Assembly (NCBI GenBank): GCA_017857395.1 | Contig: JAFMDF010000005.1 | Span: forward strand, 1 to 64,000 | DNA from: Bacteroidota bacterium | GTDB taxonomy: Bacteria > Bacteroidota > Bacteroidia > Chitinophagales > Saprospiraceae | Length of the DNA: 64,000 nucleotides | Direction: 5' to 3' | Part shown: in pieces, positions 19,578 to 32,760 of the stretch | Numbering within the stretch: the stretch's first letter is position 1 | Layout of the letters: the number at the start of each line of letters is the position of its first letter | Notes under the pieces: model-generated | Databases searched by the model: none | What the model saw: only the letters and a program-made list of their open reading frames with translations | What the model was told of the DNA's origin: nothing | Made by a program: the position numbers and the translations under genes

Positions 19578-22500
19578 TTAATAAAACCTAGTTACTAACA
19601 ACTTCTTAGCAACTAATTGACGACCATCCGTTTGCACTTGAATGATATACAAACCATTGTCAAAATCCCTTAAATCAATTCGATGACGACGAGTAGATAG
19701 ATTGAGTACTTGCTCGCTATACATCGTTCTGCCAGGTTGGTCTTTGATGGAAATAGTAATATCCTTTCCATTATATAGCGTCAAGTCAATAAATACTTCT
19801 TCTTTGGTAACAGGATTAGGAAAAACACCAAAGTCAGGTAATTTATTAAAAGTAACTTTTTTTATTGGGGTGTACTCAAAGTCACCATCTGTATAAATTA
19901 ATTTTAACCGATAATAATTATCGCCTTCCAATGGATCCGTATCCAATTCTTTGAATTTGCGAACTTCATCCGTTGCGCCTGCTGCATTATGGATAGCAAT
20001 CGACTCAAAATTAATACCATCACTAGAACGTTCCAATACAAATTCGTCATTTTTATAACCTGTATTATTTAACCATTCCATTTCTACCGTTTGTTGGATA
20101 GGATAAGCAGCAAAGGCTAATACTTTGCTGGCTCGGTTAAGGGCAGTTGGGGCAACTGTAGGGGCAGTTACAACTACATCTTCTTGTCGATAACAATAAC
20201 TATTATCATCTCCAAACATTTGTAATTTGACGGTATAAGTACCAGGGCTAAGATTAGTAATAATGTGAGGGTTCGTACAAGGGTCTGTTGCTGCACAAAT
20301 TAAAATAGGAATCCAATTCGTTTCTGAACCAATGATAGCTATTTCTTCTGCTTGTGCAGTTAGATTGGTTAAAGTAATAATGCCTTCGCCACCAATAAAT
20401 TGCACGTTATCACAATTAGCTGGACCACCTTCATTGCCTAAACAAGTACAGCCATCCATTTGAATGACATCGCCTTGAGTATTCGCATTGCCATCATCAC
20501 AAGCAGTACCAGGTAAGGCTGGTAAATTAGGGTTATTAATCGCACAATCAACATCATCACAAATACCATCATTATCACTATCTAATGTGCAAGGAATGAT
20601 GCCTGCACAAGTACAGCCGTCTGCTTGAATCACATCTCCTGTGGTATTCGCATCTCCATCATCGCAAGTCGTACCTGCTGTTGTGGGAATATTTGGATTA
20701 TTGTCATCACAATCCAACTCAAAACAAACGCCGTCATTATCGCCATCTGTACAAGGGCCATCTGTTACTAATACATCTTCTTGTCGGTAACAATAACTAT
20801 TGTCATCCCCAAACATTTGCAGTTTGACAGTATATAATCCTGGTGTTAAATTTGTGATTGTATAAGGATTGGAGCAAGCATCTGTTGCTGCACAAACCAG
20901 GATAGGAATCCAATTGGTTTCAGAACCAATAATAGATATTTCTTCTTCTGCTGCGGTAAGATTATTTAAGGTTATCATGCCATTTCCGCCAATAAATTGT
21001 ACGTTATCACAATTGGCAGGGCCGCCACCTATTCCTGCACAGGTACAACCATCTGCTTGATAAACATCTCCTGTGGTGTTCGCATCGCCATCATCACAAG
21101 CTGTTCCTGCAATGGTAGGTAAATTGGGGTTATTATCATCACAGTCTTCGGCTGCACAAAAGCCATCGTTATCATTATCAGGACAAGGAGTTCCTGAACA
21201 GGTACATTCGTCTGCCTGAATGACATCATTTAAGGTATTCGGATTTCCATCATTACAAGGCGTTCCTGAAGGGGCAGGTACATTTGGATTATTATCATCA
21301 CAATCATCAGGTTGACAAACGCCATCTAAATCGACGTCAACTGGGCAATTGAAGATACCTGCACAAGTACAACCATCGGCTTGAATCACATCATTAATGG
21401 TATTTATATCGCCGTCATTGCAGGAAGTACCTGGTGTTGCTGGTACATTTGGGTCATTATCATCACAATCATCGGCAGCACAAACGCCATCATTATCATT
21501 ATCTACAGGGCAGACAAAAGTACCTGCACAAGTACAGCCATCTGCTAAAATTACATCATTGATCGTATTTATATCTCCATCATCACAACTTGTACCTGCT
21601 GTGGCAGGGATAGTAGGATCATTATCATCACAATCATCAGGTAAACAGAATCCGTCATTATCGTTATCTGTACAACCTGCTGTCACAATTACATCATCTT
21701 GGACATAACAATAAGTGTTATCATCTCCAAACATATTTACTTTGACAGTATAATTACCTGGTGCTAGATTTGGAATTATTTGAGTATTTGTACAATTGTC
21801 ATTACAAATGGGAACGATTTGCCAATTGGTAGGTGCACCAATTATTTCGACTATTTCACCCGAAGCGGTTAAATTTTCTATCGTTATTTGACCAACACCA
21901 CCCGAAAAAAGTACGGCATTACAATTGGCTGTTCCACCACCATTACTTCCAGCACAAGTACAACCATCAGCTTGAATGACATCGTTTACGGTATTAACAT
22001 CTCCATCATCGCAAAGCGTACCAGGGGCAGTCGGTAAATTAGGGTCATTATCATCGCAATCTACATCAAAACAAAAACCGTCATTATCCGCATCAATTAG
22101 ACAAGGAACTGTTCCTTGACAAGTACAACCATCTGCTAAATAAACATCTCCAGTAGTCATTGCATTTCCATCGTCGCAAGCAGTTCCAGGAGTAGCGGGT
22201 AGATTAGGATTATTATCGTCGCAATCTACATTGGCACAAACCCCATCTTCATCTATATCCGTACAAGGGCCAGCTAGTACGGTAACTGTTTCTTCTCGAT
22301 AGCAATAACTATTGTCGCTACCAAACATATTAAGTTTGACATTATAATCGCCAGGCAAAAGATTTGGAATTATTTGCGTATTATCGCAATCACCATCACA
22401 AATAAGGACAACATTATAGTTAGTTCCCGCACCGATAATTTCTATTATCTCACTAGTCGCTAATAAATTGTCTACAATAATTTCGCCATTCCCACCAATA

Positions 22501-25500
22501 AAAAGAACGCCATTACAATCAGCTATCGCTCCTGTTCCTGAACCTAGACAAGTACAACCATCTGCTAAATACACATCATTTTCTGTATTTGGGTTGCCAT
22601 CATTACAAAGTGTCCCAGGTGTAGTCGGAATATTTGGGTCATTATCATTACAATCTTCTGTAACACAAAAACCATCATTATCTGCATCTTCACATATTCC
22701 TTCATTCAAGATAATACTAGTTTGTGGGGCATTATTACCAGAATGAGTCAATATTAAGACGCCATTTTCGTCGCCAGGCGTATTACTTGTAGTTGTAATA
22801 TCAATGACTAAACTATCCCCCGGCCCAATGACGAGCGGCAATGTTGCGCCATTTGTAATAGCAAAACTAAAAGTAGGAGAAGACTCCATCATTAAACCAA
22901 TACTATCTAAGATAATTGCTTGATTACCAACGGTATTTCGGAGAATAATAGTTTCGTCGTTACCTGTAAATTGTAAAGCATTAAGGGTGTTTAGATTGTC
23001 TCCTTCTACTGTTAAAAGACTTTGAGTTATCGGCGTAAAAACAGGTACATTCTTTTGGGTAAAATAGAATACTTCTTGCGAGTTGGAACTTCCTCCTCCT
23101 ATGATAGGAGAACCTGTCGCTATATAAATAACTCCATTATTTACGATTGCTTGTGTGCCATGTCTTCCTTGATTTAAATTGGGTAAAATTCGCCATGTAT
23201 TATCTTCTAAATTTAAGGCTTCTGTTTTGTTGAGACCATTACCTAATACATTTTCTCCACCAATGGTTAAAATTTCATTTCCTAAAAGTGCTAGAGAACT
23301 GCCGCCTCTTGGTGTCGGAATTGGATTCGGTAAACTAGACCAAGTTTCTGTATCAAAATCAAAGACATCCACCGTAGCTACCGTTGCATTTTGATTACCT
23401 CCCAAATTTGTCTGTTTTCCAGCCACCATATACAATTTATCATCAAAAACTATAGCTTGTGCATGATCTCTATCATTTTGCGCATCTGGCAAAACTCTCC
23501 AGGTATTAGTAGTAGGGTCGTATTCATCTAACCACGCAACTCGACCTCCTGTATGTCCATTTTGAATACCGCCAGAAAGATAAATTTTTCCTTTGTGAAC
23601 TGCTGCTGCTGCTGCGCCTCTTCTTCTAGCAACAGGAATTTCGGGGCCCATTGCCCAACTATCTGTTACGGGGTCATAGAGATAAATATTAGGAACAGGT
23701 GTATCATTTGGAAAGACACCTGTAAAAGCACCAATCACACAGATAAGTCCTTGATATTCGATAGCTTGAAAATGATGTAAATTTAATGGAGCAGTTGCGC
23801 CCGTTGTCCAAATATCGGTTATAGGATCATAAATATTAACCTCATTGGTTTCCCTACTACCGACTAAATAAAATTTATCCCCTGCTTCTACATATCCCGT
23901 TTCGTGTCGATTAGTAGGACAACTGCCAGGATTTCCAAAAGGGGCACAATTAAGCCCATCATTGATTGTTTCCCATTGACCAACAATAGAATTAGGATCA
24001 TTAAATAATAAATTAATATCATCCCAAATTGCGGTAAAAGGAATAGTTGAACCTGCCGAACTAGCAGTGATTCCTACTGCTAGCGCTATATTTGTATTTT
24101 GAATAGCATTTAACAAACTACCCGATGTACTAAGAGGACCACTACCCAAAGGGAAAGAATTGCTGCCATTAACCGAGAGCATAGGTTGTACATTTCCATT
24201 GGCAGGATTGACAGATAAAGCTAATTTTAATTCTGCTGCTGCAAAGAGGGTACTAAAGCCATAAGTATTGGTAATAGCTACGCCATTATTTTCTTGGATT
24301 ATTTGAATACCGCCATTACCATTTAACGCATTTAGGACAATTTTGATATAATTATCTTGGTCGCCTGTTCCAATATAAATACCATGCTGTTGATTACTAG
24401 TAGGCGGTGTGCTTAAGAAGGGAGGTACAATTTTTCCTGATACAGTAAAAGGTGGAGTCGCCGCATCTATTTTTACTCCAAATTGGAAAGCATTGACTTC
24501 ATTATTACTATTGCCTAAAGCAATACTATCTGTAACGCCTGGAATGACTAATAATTCAGGTGCACCACCAGCAATAATATCATTTTCATTATAGATTAAA
24601 TCTAAATAGTCTGTGATACCATTAGTCATTAAGCCTGTGAAACCTAAATCTAATAAACCACTTGTTCCATTGGCTAATCTATTGGTCAATGGAAGGGTGG
24701 TATTTAGGCCATTAAAGGCATCTTGTGCAAAAGGGTCTACATTATCTAATAAGCCATCATCATCGTCATCGGAATCATTTAGATTAGATACCTTAAAACC
24801 ACCTATTAAGGTTTTGTCAAAATCTGATGGGGTAATGGCAGGATTACAAGGGTCACTACCATTTTGGATTTCATCGCTATTGGTATATCCATCGCCATCT
24901 TCATCAATCGTATTATCATCTGTTCCAAGGCATGTATTATTATTCGAAGGTTCTAAAACAGCTATTGAATTACCACTAAATTCAGCTACCCAAATAGTCC
25001 CTGCAAAAAAGGAATTATTGGGTAAACTTGTTACATCCAAAGGAATGCTTAATTGGTTCGCAATACTCATTACACCATCTGTTCCCAAATCACCATTGGC
25101 ATCTAAGTCTACTCTTAATAAATCACCAGAAAAAGAAACCGCTAATAAATCTCCTTTCATCGCTCCACCAAAGGTGTTTGCGGTATATTCAGCCATACCA
25201 TTGGTAGAGGCCTCTCTAGTAAATATACTGCCATCACTTACTCCGGGGTTTTGAAAGTCTGCTTCCCGTAAATCTTTTAAACTTTCTGGATAAGGAGGCC
25301 AATCTACGGGTAAAGTAGTCGCTGGATTTCCTGTAATGGTCGTTCTAAAAGTACCCGTTTGACTAGGGCCATCTTCGTGGGTAAATAATCCAGCACCCAA
25401 TGGATTAGCTCTAACCGGTGTAGGATGTCCGCCATAATAACCCTGTGTGACTTTATGCAAGCCATCCTTATTATTGACTTTTGCATCATTAGGTCCAGGA

Positions 25501-26588
25501 CCGTTAGAACCAGGTTCTCCAAATACCCAATTATTCGTTACATTCGGTGTTCCTTCATTTTCTGGATGTCCACCAATCCCTCCATTTGGGCCATTATCCC
25601 AAGTATATATATAACCTAATTCCGTTAAGACGACATCATATTGATTTCGAAAACCTGATGAAAAAATCGAAATTGGACCACCAGGAATATATTTAGCTTG
25701 ATTTAATCCATCGTTACCACCAAAAGGGTCATTGATATCTTTGCCATTACTATCATTGGGCCGAGTAGGATCATCCAAAGTAGGAATGTCGTAAATATAA
25801 GGTTGGTTAGAGGTTGCATCTAATAAGATTGGCATGCCGTCCAACATAGTTAAGTCAATTTCCAAAATAGTTGCGGATAAAGCATATTCACTAAGGTGAT
25901 CAAAATTAGCAGAAGGTGCACCTGCATTGGTGTTACCACCTTGGGCAACAATTAAAACATTTTTAACGGCATCATATTGAATGCCGTTGGTTGCATGGTT
26001 TTCTTCAGAACGGGGCAAGCCTCTGATTAAATCTACTTTCGACCAAGAAGTACCGTCATAAGTTAATCGAGAAACAACGCCTGAATTGGTATCCAGGCCA
26101 GTATCGCTTCCGCCGCCACCACCAATACGTACATCACTTGAAGAAGCATAAATAATAGGATTAGTTGGTGTACCGACAATTATAATACCAGTAACTTGAC
26201 GTTCATCTTCAAAGAAGTTTAATGCACCATCTACATCATTATGATTGGGAATATTTTTCACTAAATCAATTACTTCTGTAGCTAATACTTGGTAATTATT
26301 GCCAACTTTATCAACGGTGTAAGCATAGATGCTTCCTGTTCTTTCTGAGACATATAACCTGCCATCAGGACCAAAGTCTAAGGAAGTTGGTTCACTGAGA
26401 TTCGTGCCACTTAAGGTTGTTTTGGAAAAAGAAATACCTTGTGCTTGCACTTGAATAAGGGAGAGGAAAATCAAGGCAATTAAGAATAAATTAGAACAGA
26501 AAGTTGGTAAATTTAGGAAAAATTGTTTTTCACCAAACCAATTTAAGGTGCAAGTACACTTGCAGCGTATGTTGTGTTTGTTGTCCAT
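19578..26588 (-). CDS. Giant T9SS-secreted multidomain protein (sugar-dehydrogenase-like propeller, Kelch, MopE-like Cys-rich repeats)
   Basis: 2336 residues. An extended signal peptide ends QVQAQ near residue 49. Residues ~55-545 resemble a PQQ-dependent sugar dehydrogenase beta-propeller. A Ca-binding-like DEDGDGY segment follows (~560), then a beta-sandwich-like region (~660-860), a Kelch propeller (~870-1175, repeated PITDIW, PVTDSW, PTTNTW) and an Ig-like stretch. Residues ~1300-2145 hold nine Cys/Asp-rich modules: a MopE-type half (DNDGFC, DCDDNDPN) joined to a half ending DGCTCAG. Four ~85-residue domains ending MFGDDNSYCY are interspersed. The order is 1-a-2-3-b-4-5-6-7-c-8-9-d. The last ~85 residues are a type A T9SS sorting domain (FPNPV, GLYIIQVQ). 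I infer a cell-surface or released protein binding metal through its repeats. The catalytic status of the propeller is unknown. One module has DECTC for DGCTC. Confidence 0.88.
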   Translation of the reverse strand: MDNKHNIRCKCTCTLNWFGEKQFFLNLPTFCSNLFLIALIFLSLIQVQAQGISFSKTTLSGTNLSEPTSLDFGPDGRLYVSERTGSIYAYTVDKVGNNYQVLATEVIDLVKNIPNHNDVDGALNFFEDERQVTGIIIVGTPTNPIIYASSSDVRIGGGGGSDTGLDTNSGVVSRLTYDGTSWSKVDLIRGLPRSEENHATNGIQYDAVKNVLIVAQGGNTNAGAPSANFDHLSEYALSATILEIDLTMLDGMPILLDATSNQPYIYDIPTLDDPTRPNDSNGKDINDPFGGNDGLNQAKYIPGGPISIFSSGFRNQYDVVLTELGYIYTWDNGPNGGIGGHPENEGTPNVTNNWVFGEPGSNGPGPNDAKVNNKDGLHKVTQGYYGGHPTPVRANPLGAGLFTHEDGPSQTGTFRTTITGNPATTLPVDWPPYPESLKDLREADFQNPGVSDGSIFTREASTNGMAEYTANTFGGAMKGDLLAVSFSGDLLRVDLDANGDLGTDGVMSIANQLSIPLDVTSLPNNSFFAGTIWVAEFSGNSIAVLEPSNNNTCLGTDDNTIDEDGDGYTNSDEIQNGSDPCNPAITPSDFDKTLIGGFKVSNLNDSDDDDDGLLDNVDPFAQDAFNGLNTTLPLTNRLANGTSGLLDLGFTGLMTNGITDYLDLIYNENDIIAGGAPELLVIPGVTDSIALGNSNNEVNAFQFGVKIDAATPPFTVSGKIVPPFLSTPPTSNQQHGIYIGTGDQDNYIKIVLNALNGNGGIQIIQENNGVAITNTYGFSTLFAAAELKLALSVNPANGNVQPMLSVNGSNSFPLGSGPLSTSGSLLNAIQNTNIALAVGITASSAGSTIPFTAIWDDINLLFNDPNSIVGQWETINDGLNCAPFGNPGSCPTNRHETGYVEAGDKFYLVGSRETNEVNIYDPITDIWTTGATAPLNLHHFQAIEYQGLICVIGAFTGVFPNDTPVPNIYLYDPVTDSWAMGPEIPVARRRGAAAAAVHKGKIYLSGGIQNGHTGGRVAWLDEYDPTTNTWRVLPDAQNDRDHAQAIVFDDKLYMVAGKQTNLGGNQNATVATVDVFDFDTETWSSLPNPIPTPRGGSSLALLGNEILTIGGENVLGNGLNKTEALNLEDNTWRILPNLNQGRHGTQAIVNNGVIYIATGSPIIGGGSSNSQEVFYFTQKNVPVFTPITQSLLTVEGDNLNTLNALQFTGNDETIILRNTVGNQAIILDSIGLMMESSPTFSFAITNGATLPLVIGPGDSLVIDITTTSNTPGDENGVLILTHSGNNAPQTSIILNEGICEDADNDGFCVTEDCNDNDPNIPTTPGTLCNDGNPNTENDVYLADGCTCLGSGTGAIADCNGVLFIGGNGEIIVDNLLATSEIIEIIGAGTNYNVVLICDGDCDNTQIIPNLLPGDYNVKLNMFGSDNSYCYREETVTVLAGPCTDIDEDGVCANVDCDDNNPNLPATPGTACDDGNAMTTGDVYLADGCTCQGTVPCLIDADNDGFCFDVDCDDNDPNLPTAPGTLCDDGDVNTVNDVIQADGCTCAGSNGGGTANCNAVLFSGGVGQITIENLTASGEIVEIIGAPTNWQIVPICNDNCTNTQIIPNLAPGNYTVKVNMFGDDNTYCYVQDDVIVTAGCTDNDNDGFCLPDDCDDNDPTIPATAGTSCDDGDINTINDVILADGCTCAGTFVCPVDNDNDGVCAADDCDDNDPNVPATPGTSCNDGDINTINDVIQADGCTCAGIFNCPVDVDLDGVCQPDDCDDNNPNVPAPSGTPCNDGNPNTLNDVIQADECTCSGTPCPDNDNDGFCAAEDCDDNNPNLPTIAGTACDDGDANTTGDVYQADGCTCAGIGGGPANCDNVQFIGGNGMITLNNLTAAEEEISIIGSETNWIPILVCAATDACSNPYTITNLTPGLYTVKLQMFGDDNSYCYRQEDVLVTDGPCTDGDNDGVCFELDCDDNNPNIPTTAGTTCDDGDANTTGDVIQADGCTCAGIIPCTLDSDNDGICDDVDCAINNPNLPALPGTACDDGNANTQGDVIQMDGCTCLGNEGGPANCDNVQFIGGEGIITLTNLTAQAEEIAIIGSETNWIPILICAATDPCTNPHIITNLSPGTYTVKLQMFGDDNSYCYRQEDVVVTAPTVAPTALNRASKVLAFAAYPIQQTVEMEWLNNTGYKNDEFVLERSSDGINFESIAIHNAAGATDEVRKFKELDTDPLEGDNYYRLKLIYTDGDFEYTPIKKVTFNKLPDFGVFPNPVTKEEVFIDLTLYNGKDITISIKDQPGRTMYSEQVLNLSTRRHRIDLRDFDNGLYIIQVQTDGRQLVAKKLLVTRFY

Positions 26589-29274: not shown

Positions 29275-32200
29275 ATGAAAAAACTTCAACCAATTTACGC
29301 TGTATTACTTACCTTATGCTTATTATATGCTTTTTCGAGTAACCCACCAAACGCCAATACTGGAGCACCAGGCGAAGGGAATTGTACCAGTTGCCATACT
29401 GGAAGTAATGCTAGTTTTGATGGCTCAGTAGCCATTCAAGGATTGCCAGAGATCATCATTCCAAATACAACTTACTCTTTAAGTGTCGTAACCAAAGTAT
29501 CAGCAGGGAGTCCTGCTAGAGCAGGTTTTCAGATGGTGGTATTAGACAATCTTAATAATAATGCAGGAAATTTAAATAATGCAGGGAATGGCGCTGCTGT
29601 CATGAATCAAGGTGGGAAAAATTATTTTGAACACAGCACCGCCTTACCCTTTAATAGTATAGATTCTGTCGAATGGACCGTAGAATGGACGGCACCTGCT
29701 ACTATAGCAAGTGATTCGATTAAAGTTTATATAAATAGTATTTTAGGAAATGGTGGAGGAAGTGGAAATGATTTGATGGTTAAGGAACAAACTGCTTATG
29801 GTTTTCAAACTGCTGTTGCCTTGCCTATAGAAATTACCATTATAGAAGCTAATGATTTATCTTGCTTCGAAGCAAATGATGGTTCTGCAACCGTCAGCGC
29901 AAGTGGAGGAACAGGCGCTTTTACTTATAAATGGTCTATTGATTCTACAACTGCTTCGATTTCTAATCTATCAATTGGGCGCTATATTGTAACCGCTACA
30001 GATTCAGAGGGTAGTACGGGAACAGCGACCGTTACAATTGACCAACCAGATGAAATACTTATCTCGGTAGATAATGTAGTTAATATCTCTTGTAATGAAC
30101 CAATCGGCGGCGCAACAATTACTGCGAGTGGTGGCGTAGCGCCTTATACCTATTTATGGAGTACGGATAGTACGACGACAACGGTGAATTTACCTGCGGG
30201 AACGCATAGCGTAACTGTAACAGACGCTAATCAATGCACGAGTACAACCAGCGTGACCATCAATGAAGATATTCGCGAACCTATTGCCTTTGCTGGATTA
30301 GATGTATTAATCACTTGCGAAGATACTAATACAGCAACAGCACAGTTAGATGCTTTTAATACGACTACAGGAACAGGTGTCACATATCTTTGGACAACAA
30401 CTAATGGAAATATTGTATCAGGAGCAACGACTTTAATGCCAATTGTCGATGCGACAGGGAATTATATTTTAACAGTGATAAATGGTTCAAATGGTTGTGT
30501 AGCAGTTGATACAGTTATAGCGACTTTTAATACACTGCTACCCATTGCAAATGCTGGAGCAGACCAAGTAATTGACTGCGATAATACGAGTGCTACTTTA
30601 GATGGAAGCAGTAGTAGCCAAAATGATGATTTAACCTACAGTTGGACAAGTTTAGCTGGAAATTTTGGGAGTGGCGAAAATACTTTAATGCCAGTTGTAA
30701 CAAGCGCAGGTACTTATATTTTGACAGTTGAACGTGTAGGAAGCTGCATTGCAATAGACTCCGTTTTGGTTACTCAAGATGCGAATATGCCAGAAGTAAT
30801 GCTAAGTGGAAATTTACAAATTGGTTGTGCAGATAGCGATACCATTCAGATTGCAGGAAATGCAACAATGGGCGATAATATTATTTATAGTTGGACAACA
30901 AATGGAGGCGTCATTATTGGAGATAGGACTACTTTACAAACGGTCATTATTGGAGCGGGAAGCTATACTTTAACCGCAACAGATACGCTTAATAATTGTA
31001 GTAGTAATGCTTCTTTTGAGGTGACAACTGTGATGCCACCAATTGCAGTTGCAGGAATGGATAGGATATTGGACTGTGCGAATGAAAATTTAGTTTTAGA
31101 TGGAAGCGAAAGCACGGGCAATCATTTAATTTTTGAATGGTCAACCATGGATGGAAATTTTATAGGCGCGAGTAATATAGCTATGCCTACGGTGGATGAA
31201 GAAGGCATTTATATTTTAACGGTGACGGATACTTTAACAGGCTGTTCAACAACGGATGAGGTAGAGATTACCGAAGATACGGCAAGTGATTTATTTGCGG
31301 CTTCTGGCGATGCCGAGCAATTGACTTGTGCCAAAACAAGTATGATGCTAAATGCAACTGCTACAGTAGGCGATAATATTATTTATAAATGGACAACAGA
31401 AGAAGGAAATATTGTAATTGGGGGCAATTCCCTAACACCTACTATTGACCAACCAGGGAAATATATTTTAACCGTCCTCGATACACTTAATGGCTGTACT
31501 GCGGTGTCTACTATCAAAATTGCACAAGACATTACTTTGCCAACGGTAAATGCTGGAGACAGTCAAACCTTAGATTGTAACACAACTTCTTTGACTTTAG
31601 TTGGTCGTTCAGATACCGAATTTAATTTAACTTATAATTGGACAACAATAGATGGAAATATTATTAATGGAGCAAATACGCTTACGCCAGAAGTGAATGC
31701 AGCAGGAACATATATTTTAACAGTAGTAGATACTTTTACGAGTTGTGCTGCTTCGGCAAGTGTGGAAATTATAACAGATGCTGCTTTACCCGTGGTCAAC
31801 GCTGGAACGATGCAACAGCTAGATTGTAATAACGATACCCTAACTTTAGCAGGAACAGGCAGCATAGGCGATAGCATTACTATTTTATGGACAACGGAAG
31901 ATGGTAATATATTAGACAATTCTATGTCTTTCACGCCAATGGTCGATGCAGCGGGTACTTACACTTTAACGGTTACCGATACAACTTCTGGTTGTAGTAA
32001 TATGGCAAGTGTCATTATTATCGAAGATATTATTAAACCGATGGTAGAAGCAGGTGCAGCTAACCAATCTTTTTGTGATAGTAGCACTTTAACGATTAAT
32101 GCTACTGCTAGCGAAGGTGATAATTTTACCTATTTCTGGTGTACAGAAGATGGTAGTATTATTAGCGGTGGAGATGCGTTGACGGTAGAAATTGACGATG

Positions 32201-32760
32201 CAGGTTTATTTGAGTTGATTGTGACGAATGCGGCTAATGGTTGTAAAAATGTAGATTCTGTTTTGGTTACTTCCTTAGAAAGCCCAGTACTTTCTTTAGA
32301 TACAATGAATGATACAACGAACTTAGTAGTCATTAACGGTACGCTTCCTTATATGTATGAATGGATAGGAACTGCGGTTTCTTTGGATAGTTCCTTAGCT
32401 AATTTAGCTCCTGGTGATTATACGGTAACAGTTACAGATGCCAACGGTTGTACAGACGATATTATGTTTACGATTGATGAAAGTACCAGTCTAGAAGCAA
32501 TAGAATCGAGTATTGAAAGCTTACAAGTTTTTCCGAATCCAACGAGTGATTTTGTGGATATTAATTTGACTTTTAATGAAGTGCAAGCAGGACAAATACT
32601 GATTTTAAATAAAGTTGGTCAACAAATTTGGCAGCAAAATTTTGAGGATAGAACTATTAACCTTTCTGTTGCTGTCAATGAGTGGTCTGCTGGGATTTAT
32701 TATATGATGATACAGACGGAGAAAGGAGTTAAAACGGAGGAAATTGTGGTGATTCGATAA
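29275..32760 (+). CDS. T9SS surface protein: choice-of-anchor V domain, SprB-like and PKD-like repeats
   Basis: 1161 residues. A signal peptide (1-21) is followed by TGAPGEGNCTSCHTG with C37, C40 and H41, the conserved CxxCH block of choice-of-anchor V domains, which run to about residue 190. Two SprB-like repeats follow (~192-332), opening SCFEANDGSA and SCNEPIGGA. About eight ~83-residue PKD/Ig-like repeats (~333-1000) share an LxC near the start, a YxWTT core, and AGTYILTVTDT before GC. A third SprB-like unit (~1010-1070) and a type A sorting domain (FPNPTSDFVDI, GIYYMMIQTEKG) end the protein. It should be exported by the type IX system; adhesion or gliding is only an analogy from SprB. 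A strong terminator follows. Confidence 0.9.
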   Translation: MKKLQPIYAVLLTLCLLYAFSSNPPNANTGAPGEGNCTSCHTGSNASFDGSVAIQGLPEIIIPNTTYSLSVVTKVSAGSPARAGFQMVVLDNLNNNAGNLNNAGNGAAVMNQGGKNYFEHSTALPFNSIDSVEWTVEWTAPATIASDSIKVYINSILGNGGGSGNDLMVKEQTAYGFQTAVALPIEITIIEANDLSCFEANDGSATVSASGGTGAFTYKWSIDSTTASISNLSIGRYIVTATDSEGSTGTATVTIDQPDEILISVDNVVNISCNEPIGGATITASGGVAPYTYLWSTDSTTTTVNLPAGTHSVTVTDANQCTSTTSVTINEDIREPIAFAGLDVLITCEDTNTATAQLDAFNTTTGTGVTYLWTTTNGNIVSGATTLMPIVDATGNYILTVINGSNGCVAVDTVIATFNTLLPIANAGADQVIDCDNTSATLDGSSSSQNDDLTYSWTSLAGNFGSGENTLMPVVTSAGTYILTVERVGSCIAIDSVLVTQDANMPEVMLSGNLQIGCADSDTIQIAGNATMGDNIIYSWTTNGGVIIGDRTTLQTVIIGAGSYTLTATDTLNNCSSNASFEVTTVMPPIAVAGMDRILDCANENLVLDGSESTGNHLIFEWSTMDGNFIGASNIAMPTVDEEGIYILTVTDTLTGCSTTDEVEITEDTASDLFAASGDAEQLTCAKTSMMLNATATVGDNIIYKWTTEEGNIVIGGNSLTPTIDQPGKYILTVLDTLNGCTAVSTIKIAQDITLPTVNAGDSQTLDCNTTSLTLVGRSDTEFNLTYNWTTIDGNIINGANTLTPEVNAAGTYILTVVDTFTSCAASASVEIITDAALPVVNAGTMQQLDCNNDTLTLAGTGSIGDSITILWTTEDGNILDNSMSFTPMVDAAGTYTLTVTDTTSGCSNMASVIIIEDIIKPMVEAGAANQSFCDSSTLTINATASEGDNFTYFWCTEDGSIISGGDALTVEIDDAGLFELIVTNAANGCKNVDSVLVTSLESPVLSLDTMNDTTNLVVINGTLPYMYEWIGTAVSLDSSLANLAPGDYTVTVTDANGCTDDIMFTIDESTSLEAIESSIESLQVFPNPTSDFVDINLTFNEVQAGQILILNKVGQQIWQQNFEDRTINLSVAVNEWSAGIYYMMIQTEKGVKTEEIVVIR

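Follow-up and report, generated by a model that had tools for sequence, protein, structure and literature searches.

Gene and domain architecture

The window, by which we mean the whole 64,000-nucleotide stretch that was analyzed, comes from an uncultured Saprospiraceae bacterium and carries on its minus strand an open reading frame (ORF; positions 19578 to 26588) that starts with ATG, has no internal stops, and encodes a protein of 2336 residues. An earlier reading of the letters alone, here the original prediction, had proposed nine modules and four interleaved domains in an ORF of this length; translation and repeat analysis bear this out, and the proposed order, 1-a-2-3-b-4-5-6-7-c-8-9-d, is exact. 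As a whole, the prediction survives in part: its module and domain anatomy stands, and the membership of the modules in PF11617 and the claim of an unusual head do not. From the N terminus to the C terminus, the features are as follows.

26439..26588, minus strand: N-terminal signal peptide region, aa 1-50, a hydrophobic stretch ending VQAQ, judged by eye
24939..26438, minus strand: GSDH-like propeller region, aa ~51-550; includes H198 and R314-N315 (PF07995 below cut-off; motif likeness)
24714..24938, minus strand: linker rich in Asp, with DxDxDG, aa ~551-625 (sub-threshold match to PF18884, TSP3_bac, at aa 562-583)
23997..24509, minus strand: beta-rich domain, aa ~694-864 (mostly at AF2 block pLDDT 69-89)
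23049..23936, minus strand: Kelch propeller, aa ~885-1180 (PF01344, 3.1e-28; Foldseek best E in the PDB 2.7e-19, to Kelch-type propellers)
22704..23021, minus strand: region preceding the array, aa ~1190-1295 (from sequence; no Pfam family among the best stretches listed)
22539..22694, minus strand: module 1 (repeat alignment)
22266..22538, minus strand: 4-Cys beta-sandwich a (repeat alignment)
22110..22265, minus strand: module 2 (repeat alignment)
21945..22103, minus strand: module 3 (repeat alignment)
21675..21944, minus strand: 4-Cys beta-sandwich b (alignment; AF2 pLDDT; best stretch for fn3_3 at aa 1605-1641)
21519..21674, minus strand: module 4 (alignment; C-terminal half at block pLDDT 76-80)
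21354..21512, minus strand: module 5 (repeat alignment)
21189..21347, minus strand: module 6, with DECTC (repeat alignment)
21030..21185, minus strand: module 7 (repeat alignment)
20754..21029, minus strand: 4-Cys beta-sandwich c (repeat alignment)
20598..20753, minus strand: module 8 (repeat alignment)
20433..20591, minus strand: module 9 (repeat alignment)
20160..20432, minus strand: 4-Cys beta-sandwich d (repeat alignment)
19833..20150, minus strand: stretch linking the array to the tail, aa ~2147-2252 (sequence only; served as a control profile)
19593..19826, minus strand: T9SS sorting domain, Por_Secre_tail (PF18962, 8.6e-12; TIGR04183, 6.6e-09)

Two further elements of the original prediction are corroborated here, the T9SS tail by both families that recognize it and the Kelch propeller by a Pfam match over the cut-off together with Foldseek. 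The two marks of T9SS cargo are both present, a C-terminal Por_Secre_tail in the protein and SprA in the genome (2210.6 bits), and we lean slightly toward a surface protein that would be exported by this route. Searches of an open-access library listed no paper whose title or abstract describes this architecture.

The propeller head

The first propeller had been called sugar dehydrogenase-like, and the match to GSDH is sub-threshold: PF07995, with a 25-bit cut-off, gave 16.2 bits for the whole protein and 22.7 bits for the sliced head. The same family was found at E ≤ 0.1 in nine of 11 aligned heads, including that of the window. H198 and R314 are invariant in these 11 heads and N315 is at least 90% conserved; in GSDH terms, H198 may correspond to the catalytic His and R314-N315 to the PQQ-binding Arg-Asn motif. 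A similar His motif was seen in five of nine GSDH ORFs recovered from the same genome, and since these ORFs had been chosen for G.RN, their Arg-Asn likeness is not independent. Profile comparison of the head with GSDH by hhalign gave a probability of 1.3, against a GSDH set that was in effect one full protein (L130) and a 35-aa fragment.

For the head, AF2 (aa 45-1200; 12-row alignment) gave a model with a mean pLDDT of 55 in which much of the first propeller region lay below 50; we drew on this model only for the Kelch propeller and a single beta-rich domain. Kelch-type propellers appear in the best 50 PDB matches listed by Foldseek, a search that barely probed the first propeller, and sequence searches of the PDB gave no relative of the head at E ≤ 1. 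The pairing of the two propellers had been considered unusual. It is not special to the window, because similar heads, 40-48% identical by tblastn, are found in Dyadobacter, Flaviaesturariibacter, Telluribacter, and Sporocytophaga. The same genome also encodes, on contig 613 (L121, 973-6633), a paralogue of 1887 aa in which a GSDH-like/Kelch head at 51% identity is accompanied by a malectin domain; just one module was detected in it.

The interleaved beta-sandwich domain

Domains a to d (aa 1351-1441, 1549-1638, 1854-1945, and 2053-2143) are each of ~90 aa and 56-82% identical, and all keep four cysteines. In an AF2 model of modules 3-b-4, made with a 12-row alignment (mean pLDDT, 68), domain b, taken in blocks of ten, lies at 82-88 except for one block of 69, and the Ig-like fold first proposed for the inserted domain is predicted by this model and by structure comparison to be an Ig/FN3-like beta-sandwich. 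The model also supports the C-terminal half of module 4. It contains no metal, and in it the acidic module halves take no confident fold (block pLDDT, 41-49), a result that speaks neither for nor against a fold that depends on metal.

Structure comparison of the domain b model (VIA-align) gave Z scores from 9.7 to 8.2 in the best 50 matches listed, most of them FN3. The best FN3 match (Z 9.7) had an rmsd of about 3. T9SS sorting domains matched with lower rmsd over fewer residues than FN3 domains, namely, the CTDs of RgpB (Z 8.4; 65 residues at an rmsd of 1.9) and RemA (Z 8.3; 73 residues at an rmsd of 2.3). A relationship to the sorting domain is no more than a lead, given that, despite the structural match, its profile probability against the beta-sandwich set was 28.6, below SprB (93.9) and SdrD_B (46.9); the other three of the six profiles compared by hhalign gave probabilities below 4. 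Pfam itself has no match for the SprB repeat (PF13573) in the window protein. For the predicted fold of the inserted domain, nothing is secure beyond a generic beta-sandwich of the FN3/Ig-like type.

The module and its relatives

The nine modules begin at aa 1299, 1442, 1496, 1639, 1693, 1748, 1802, 1946, and 2000 (nt 22694-20433). Each has 52-53 aa and six cysteines spaced C-x8/9-C-x4-C-x14-C-x16-C-x-C. Pairwise identity is 58-81% with 24 invariant columns, a likeness that, judged from the alignment, is beyond chance. The cysteines and Asp-rich loops are indeed kept in every module, as had been claimed, with the Asp columns near-invariant; the DGCTC ending attributed to all nine is present in eight, and module 6 ends DECTC. 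Among the 472 residues of the nine modules, 106 are acidic (99 D and 7 E), and there is no K, R, H, or W.

Iterative searching of 78 retrieved loci with the module profile gathered 138 stretches. Some of these are truncated copies or half modules, so the C-terminal half (CDDG...C.C.G) can also stand by itself. A stricter set of 89 rows of at least 45 aa, less six truncated duplicates, left 83 distinct modules from 24 fetched loci; of these modules, 74 lie outside the window's gene, in other genes or other genomes, and orthologues supply 25 of the 74. The profile that gathered the set was built from the modules of the window, which biases conservation upwards. Within the set, Asp reaches 97% or more at columns 3, 5, 7, 14, 32, and 40 and nowhere else; five Cys, three Gly, and one Thr column reach the same level. 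The Asp residues at columns 3, 5, 7, and 14 are present in 83 of 83 modules and G8 in 81, and these columns correspond to positions 1, 3, 5, and 12, with Gly at 6, of a Dx[DN]xDG loop. A calcium loop of this kind, with an acid at position 12, is described in PMC3123361, and the modules have its acids at all four positions and its glycine.

No family over its cut-off in Pfam or NCBIfam names the modules, whether sliced from the protein or in a panel of 24 diverse ones. The acidic half had been described as MopE-like. A search with PF11617 (27-bit cut-off) gave no match in the window protein, in four sliced modules, or in the 24 diverse modules, and the 23 matches to this family in the same genome all lie off the window's contig. 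What stands of the claim is a distant profile relation: aligned by hhalign with eight MopE (PF11617) segments from the same genome, the module profile scored 27.6 (probability, 80) in a match of 34 columns, and 100 column shuffles reached at most 18.0. Against 12 TSP3 segments from the same genome it scored 24.8 (probability, 70), with a match that covers exactly the 12-residue loop DxDxDGxCxxxD. Both are one-against-one comparisons with modest probabilities and small sets; seven unrelated profiles gave probabilities below 1. Membership in the TSP3 families themselves (PF02412 and PF18884) was rejected, with no Pfam match to sliced modules or the 24 diverse ones, as was membership in CTDC, which stayed below the cut-off (Dicty_CTDC, E 0.12, in one of the 24). 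In the PDB, the diverse module profile (A7) listed MopE (2vov) as its sole entry, at a nonsignificant E of 2.6; query set A1 gave no sequence relative, and set A2 gave filamin at E 0.79. Elsewhere, genuine PF11617 stretches adjoin half repeats of the module type in the ORF L120 (21-3563, on the same contig as L016), possibly an intermediate between the MopE motif and the module.

According to PMC3423442, the copper ligands of MopE are His132, His203, and a kynurenine derived from Trp130, and calcium stabilized MopE, protecting it against proteolytic degradation. A copper site of the MopE type cannot form within the modules, because they have neither His nor Trp. Calcium seems the better guess for the metal that the modules may bind, since the invariant acids fit the Dx[DN]xDG loop and the copper ligands are absent. 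This would correct a likely misreading of the modules as copper-binding MopE.

Orthologues and gene context

The orthologues (L061 to L064) come from MAGs of uncultured Saprospiraceae. The three that are full length, all congeneric, keep the order of the array, each with eight modules (1-a-2-3-b-4-5-6-c-7-8-d) where the window protein has nine. In each case, the closest counterpart of the orthologue's module 5 is module 5 or 6 of the window protein, which suggests a single tandem gain or loss of a module near this position. Four of 13 neighboring proteins have matches beside the fragmentary orthologue, L062, and none beside L061, L063, and L064, each covered with flanks of at most about 7 kb; gene context gives no function. 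One neighbor (29275-32760), a T9SS protein of 1161 aa, combines a Por_Secre_tail with repeats of the SprB and PKD families; part of this protein adjoins L062 as well.

Recurrence on other secreted proteins

The beta-sandwich domain profile has 77 matches in the window's genome and the module profile 31, copy numbers that may be inflated. The assembly measures 10.15 Mb in 631 contigs with 4.82% contamination, and its eight congeners measure 3.7-7.1 Mb. Both profiles match all nine genomes of the genus, own included, the domain with 9-77 copies and the module with 13-44. In the sample of 119 genomes from the order, the domain was found in three (own included, the other two marginal) and the module in 12; the module was found in three of 395 genomes from the phylum, its counts likewise including the window's own. 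A more diverse module profile found six of the 395, own included, several of these being half modules.

Another 37 ORFs of the same genome, some of them cut by contig ends, carry the domain (32), the module (13), or both (8). Por_Secre_tail is present in 25 of the 33 that were scanned with Pfam (one just under the cut-off), and six of the eight lacking it run off a contig end. The other domains on these ORFs include haem peroxidase (L116), C-type lectin with HYR (L103, L122, and L124), matrixin (L097), Kazal (L108), LRR, SdrD_B, and SprB repeats. Relatives in congeners carry lysyl oxidase (L030, 2.3e-36) or AXE1 esterase (L034, 1.1e-16), and one in another family of the same order carries an M43 peptidase (L043, 4.8e-13). 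Because they recur on dozens of other secreted proteins, the modules and domains look like reusable spacer building blocks for diverse T9SS cargo, as far as their sequences tell.

L116 (2898-5684) joins an animal-type haem peroxidase (PF03098, 2.5e-134) to three 4-Cys beta-sandwiches and a T9SS tail, and L108 (2092-5727) is a bacterial T9SS protein of 1212 aa with Kazal-type protease-inhibitor repeats in 11 matched stretches. The lysyl-oxidase protein L030 (G001, contig 176) has nine modules, 83-96% identical to one another, with interleaved beta-sandwiches; the modules look as if homogenized.

A possible stalk and its alternatives

The sequence anatomy, the conservation, the recurrence on other T9SS cargo, and the predicted beta-sandwich fold are the basis on which we read the array as a shuffled spacer or stalk, presumably stabilized by calcium and disulfides, under a two-propeller head. 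We consider this reading marginally better than an even bet. We imagine that T9SS would export the chain to the outside of the cell, where extracellular Ca2+ would fill the DxDxDGxCxxxD loop of each module, compensate for its large negative charge, and bring order to the acidic half. Pairing of the cysteines would lock each module and domain, and the result would be a rigid, protease-resistant spacer whose length could change by whole modules. A stalk of ~850 residues, made of 52-aa six-Cys modules and ~90-aa four-Cys beta-sandwiches, would thereby carry the propellers.

One can also envision that the array binds a ligand or carbohydrate, the repeated 4-Cys beta-sandwiches being binding units with avidity and the modules their spacers. 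The 77 copies of the domain, found beside C-type lectin, LRR, Kazal, haem peroxidase, or SdrD_B, would suit such a role. So would two carbohydrate-related hints, both with their best stretch in domain b of the whole protein: fn3_3 (PF14686, polysaccharide lyase 4 domain II) just over its cut-off (25.2 versus 24.4 bits, E 1.4e-5) and AMPK1_CBM below its own (E 0.0011). When domains b and d were sliced out, however, no Pfam family passed its cut-off; fn3_3 fell to 12.9 bits on domain b alone, the two families were at E 0.04-0.19 or absent, and the PDB fold matches listed are mostly generic FN3 and T9SS sorting domains. We regard ligand binding by the array as unlikely, if worth keeping in view.

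At the other extreme, the repeats might be the product of passive drift, a role-less Asp/Asn-rich tail kept by recombination among paralogues. Copy number does vary, nine versus eight, and the close similarity of the modules in L030 is what such recombination could leave, but the 15 columns conserved at 97% or more across 83 modules, and an order and number kept in all three full-length orthologues apart from one module, make drift improbable. That the modules are MopE-like copper-binding units we regard as very improbable: the 34-column match to PF11617 segments and the nonsignificant PDB entry for MopE speak for it, whereas the modules lack the His and Trp from which MopE makes its copper site, give no match to PF11617, and have an acidic-loop pattern that fits calcium, the ion reported to stabilize MopE itself in PMC3423442.

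The surface proteins of Bacteroidota hold many unannotated repeats. Two of these can now be defined and counted, with a chemistry, calcium plus disulfides, that can be tested; both are found on heads of widely differing kinds, catalytic as well as binding. If true, the stalk reading would explain how a single genus could hold many T9SS cargoes at a distance from its cells. The modules, small and expressible, allow it to be tested directly.

Comparison with known systems

The propeller head is 40-48% identical, over all or part of its length, to GSDH-like plus Kelch proteins of other Bacteroidota. Two module patterns were tested on the ORFs of these proteins, and neither matched. The module shares with Cu-binding_MopE (PF11617) a D.D.DG...DCDD.DP.I core, within the 34-column profile match. 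It differs in having no CDGxDNxCDGxIDE, ending instead in CDDG-x3-T-x2-D-x4-DGCTC-x-G, and in having extra cysteines and none of the His/Trp copper ligands. With TSP3 repeats (PF02412 and PF18884) it has in common their 12-residue DxDxDGxCxxxD loop, but there is one loop per 52 aa, joined to a Cys-rich half.

The inserted domain resembles FN3/Ig-like domains and the T9SS CTD in its predicted beta-sandwich, a likeness of fold only, and is set apart from both by four conserved cysteines and by its rarity outside one genus in the samples searched. The SprB repeat (PF13573) was the best of the six profiles against the beta-sandwich set (probability, 93.9), but the inserted domain is longer and has two pairs of conserved cysteines.

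Calcium-loop and beta-sandwich stalks are already known in kind, and the most interesting part is the two domain families that the libraries searched leave unnamed. It is possible, at somewhat less than an even chance, that the 52-aa Ca-loop/Cys module and the genus-centered 4-Cys beta-sandwich form a shuffled extracellular toolkit that one genus of Saprospiraceae mounts on T9SS enzymes and adhesins by the dozen. This would be a stalk system hardened by calcium and comparable to the EGF/TSP3/FN3 stalks of animals, with its length set by module duplication.
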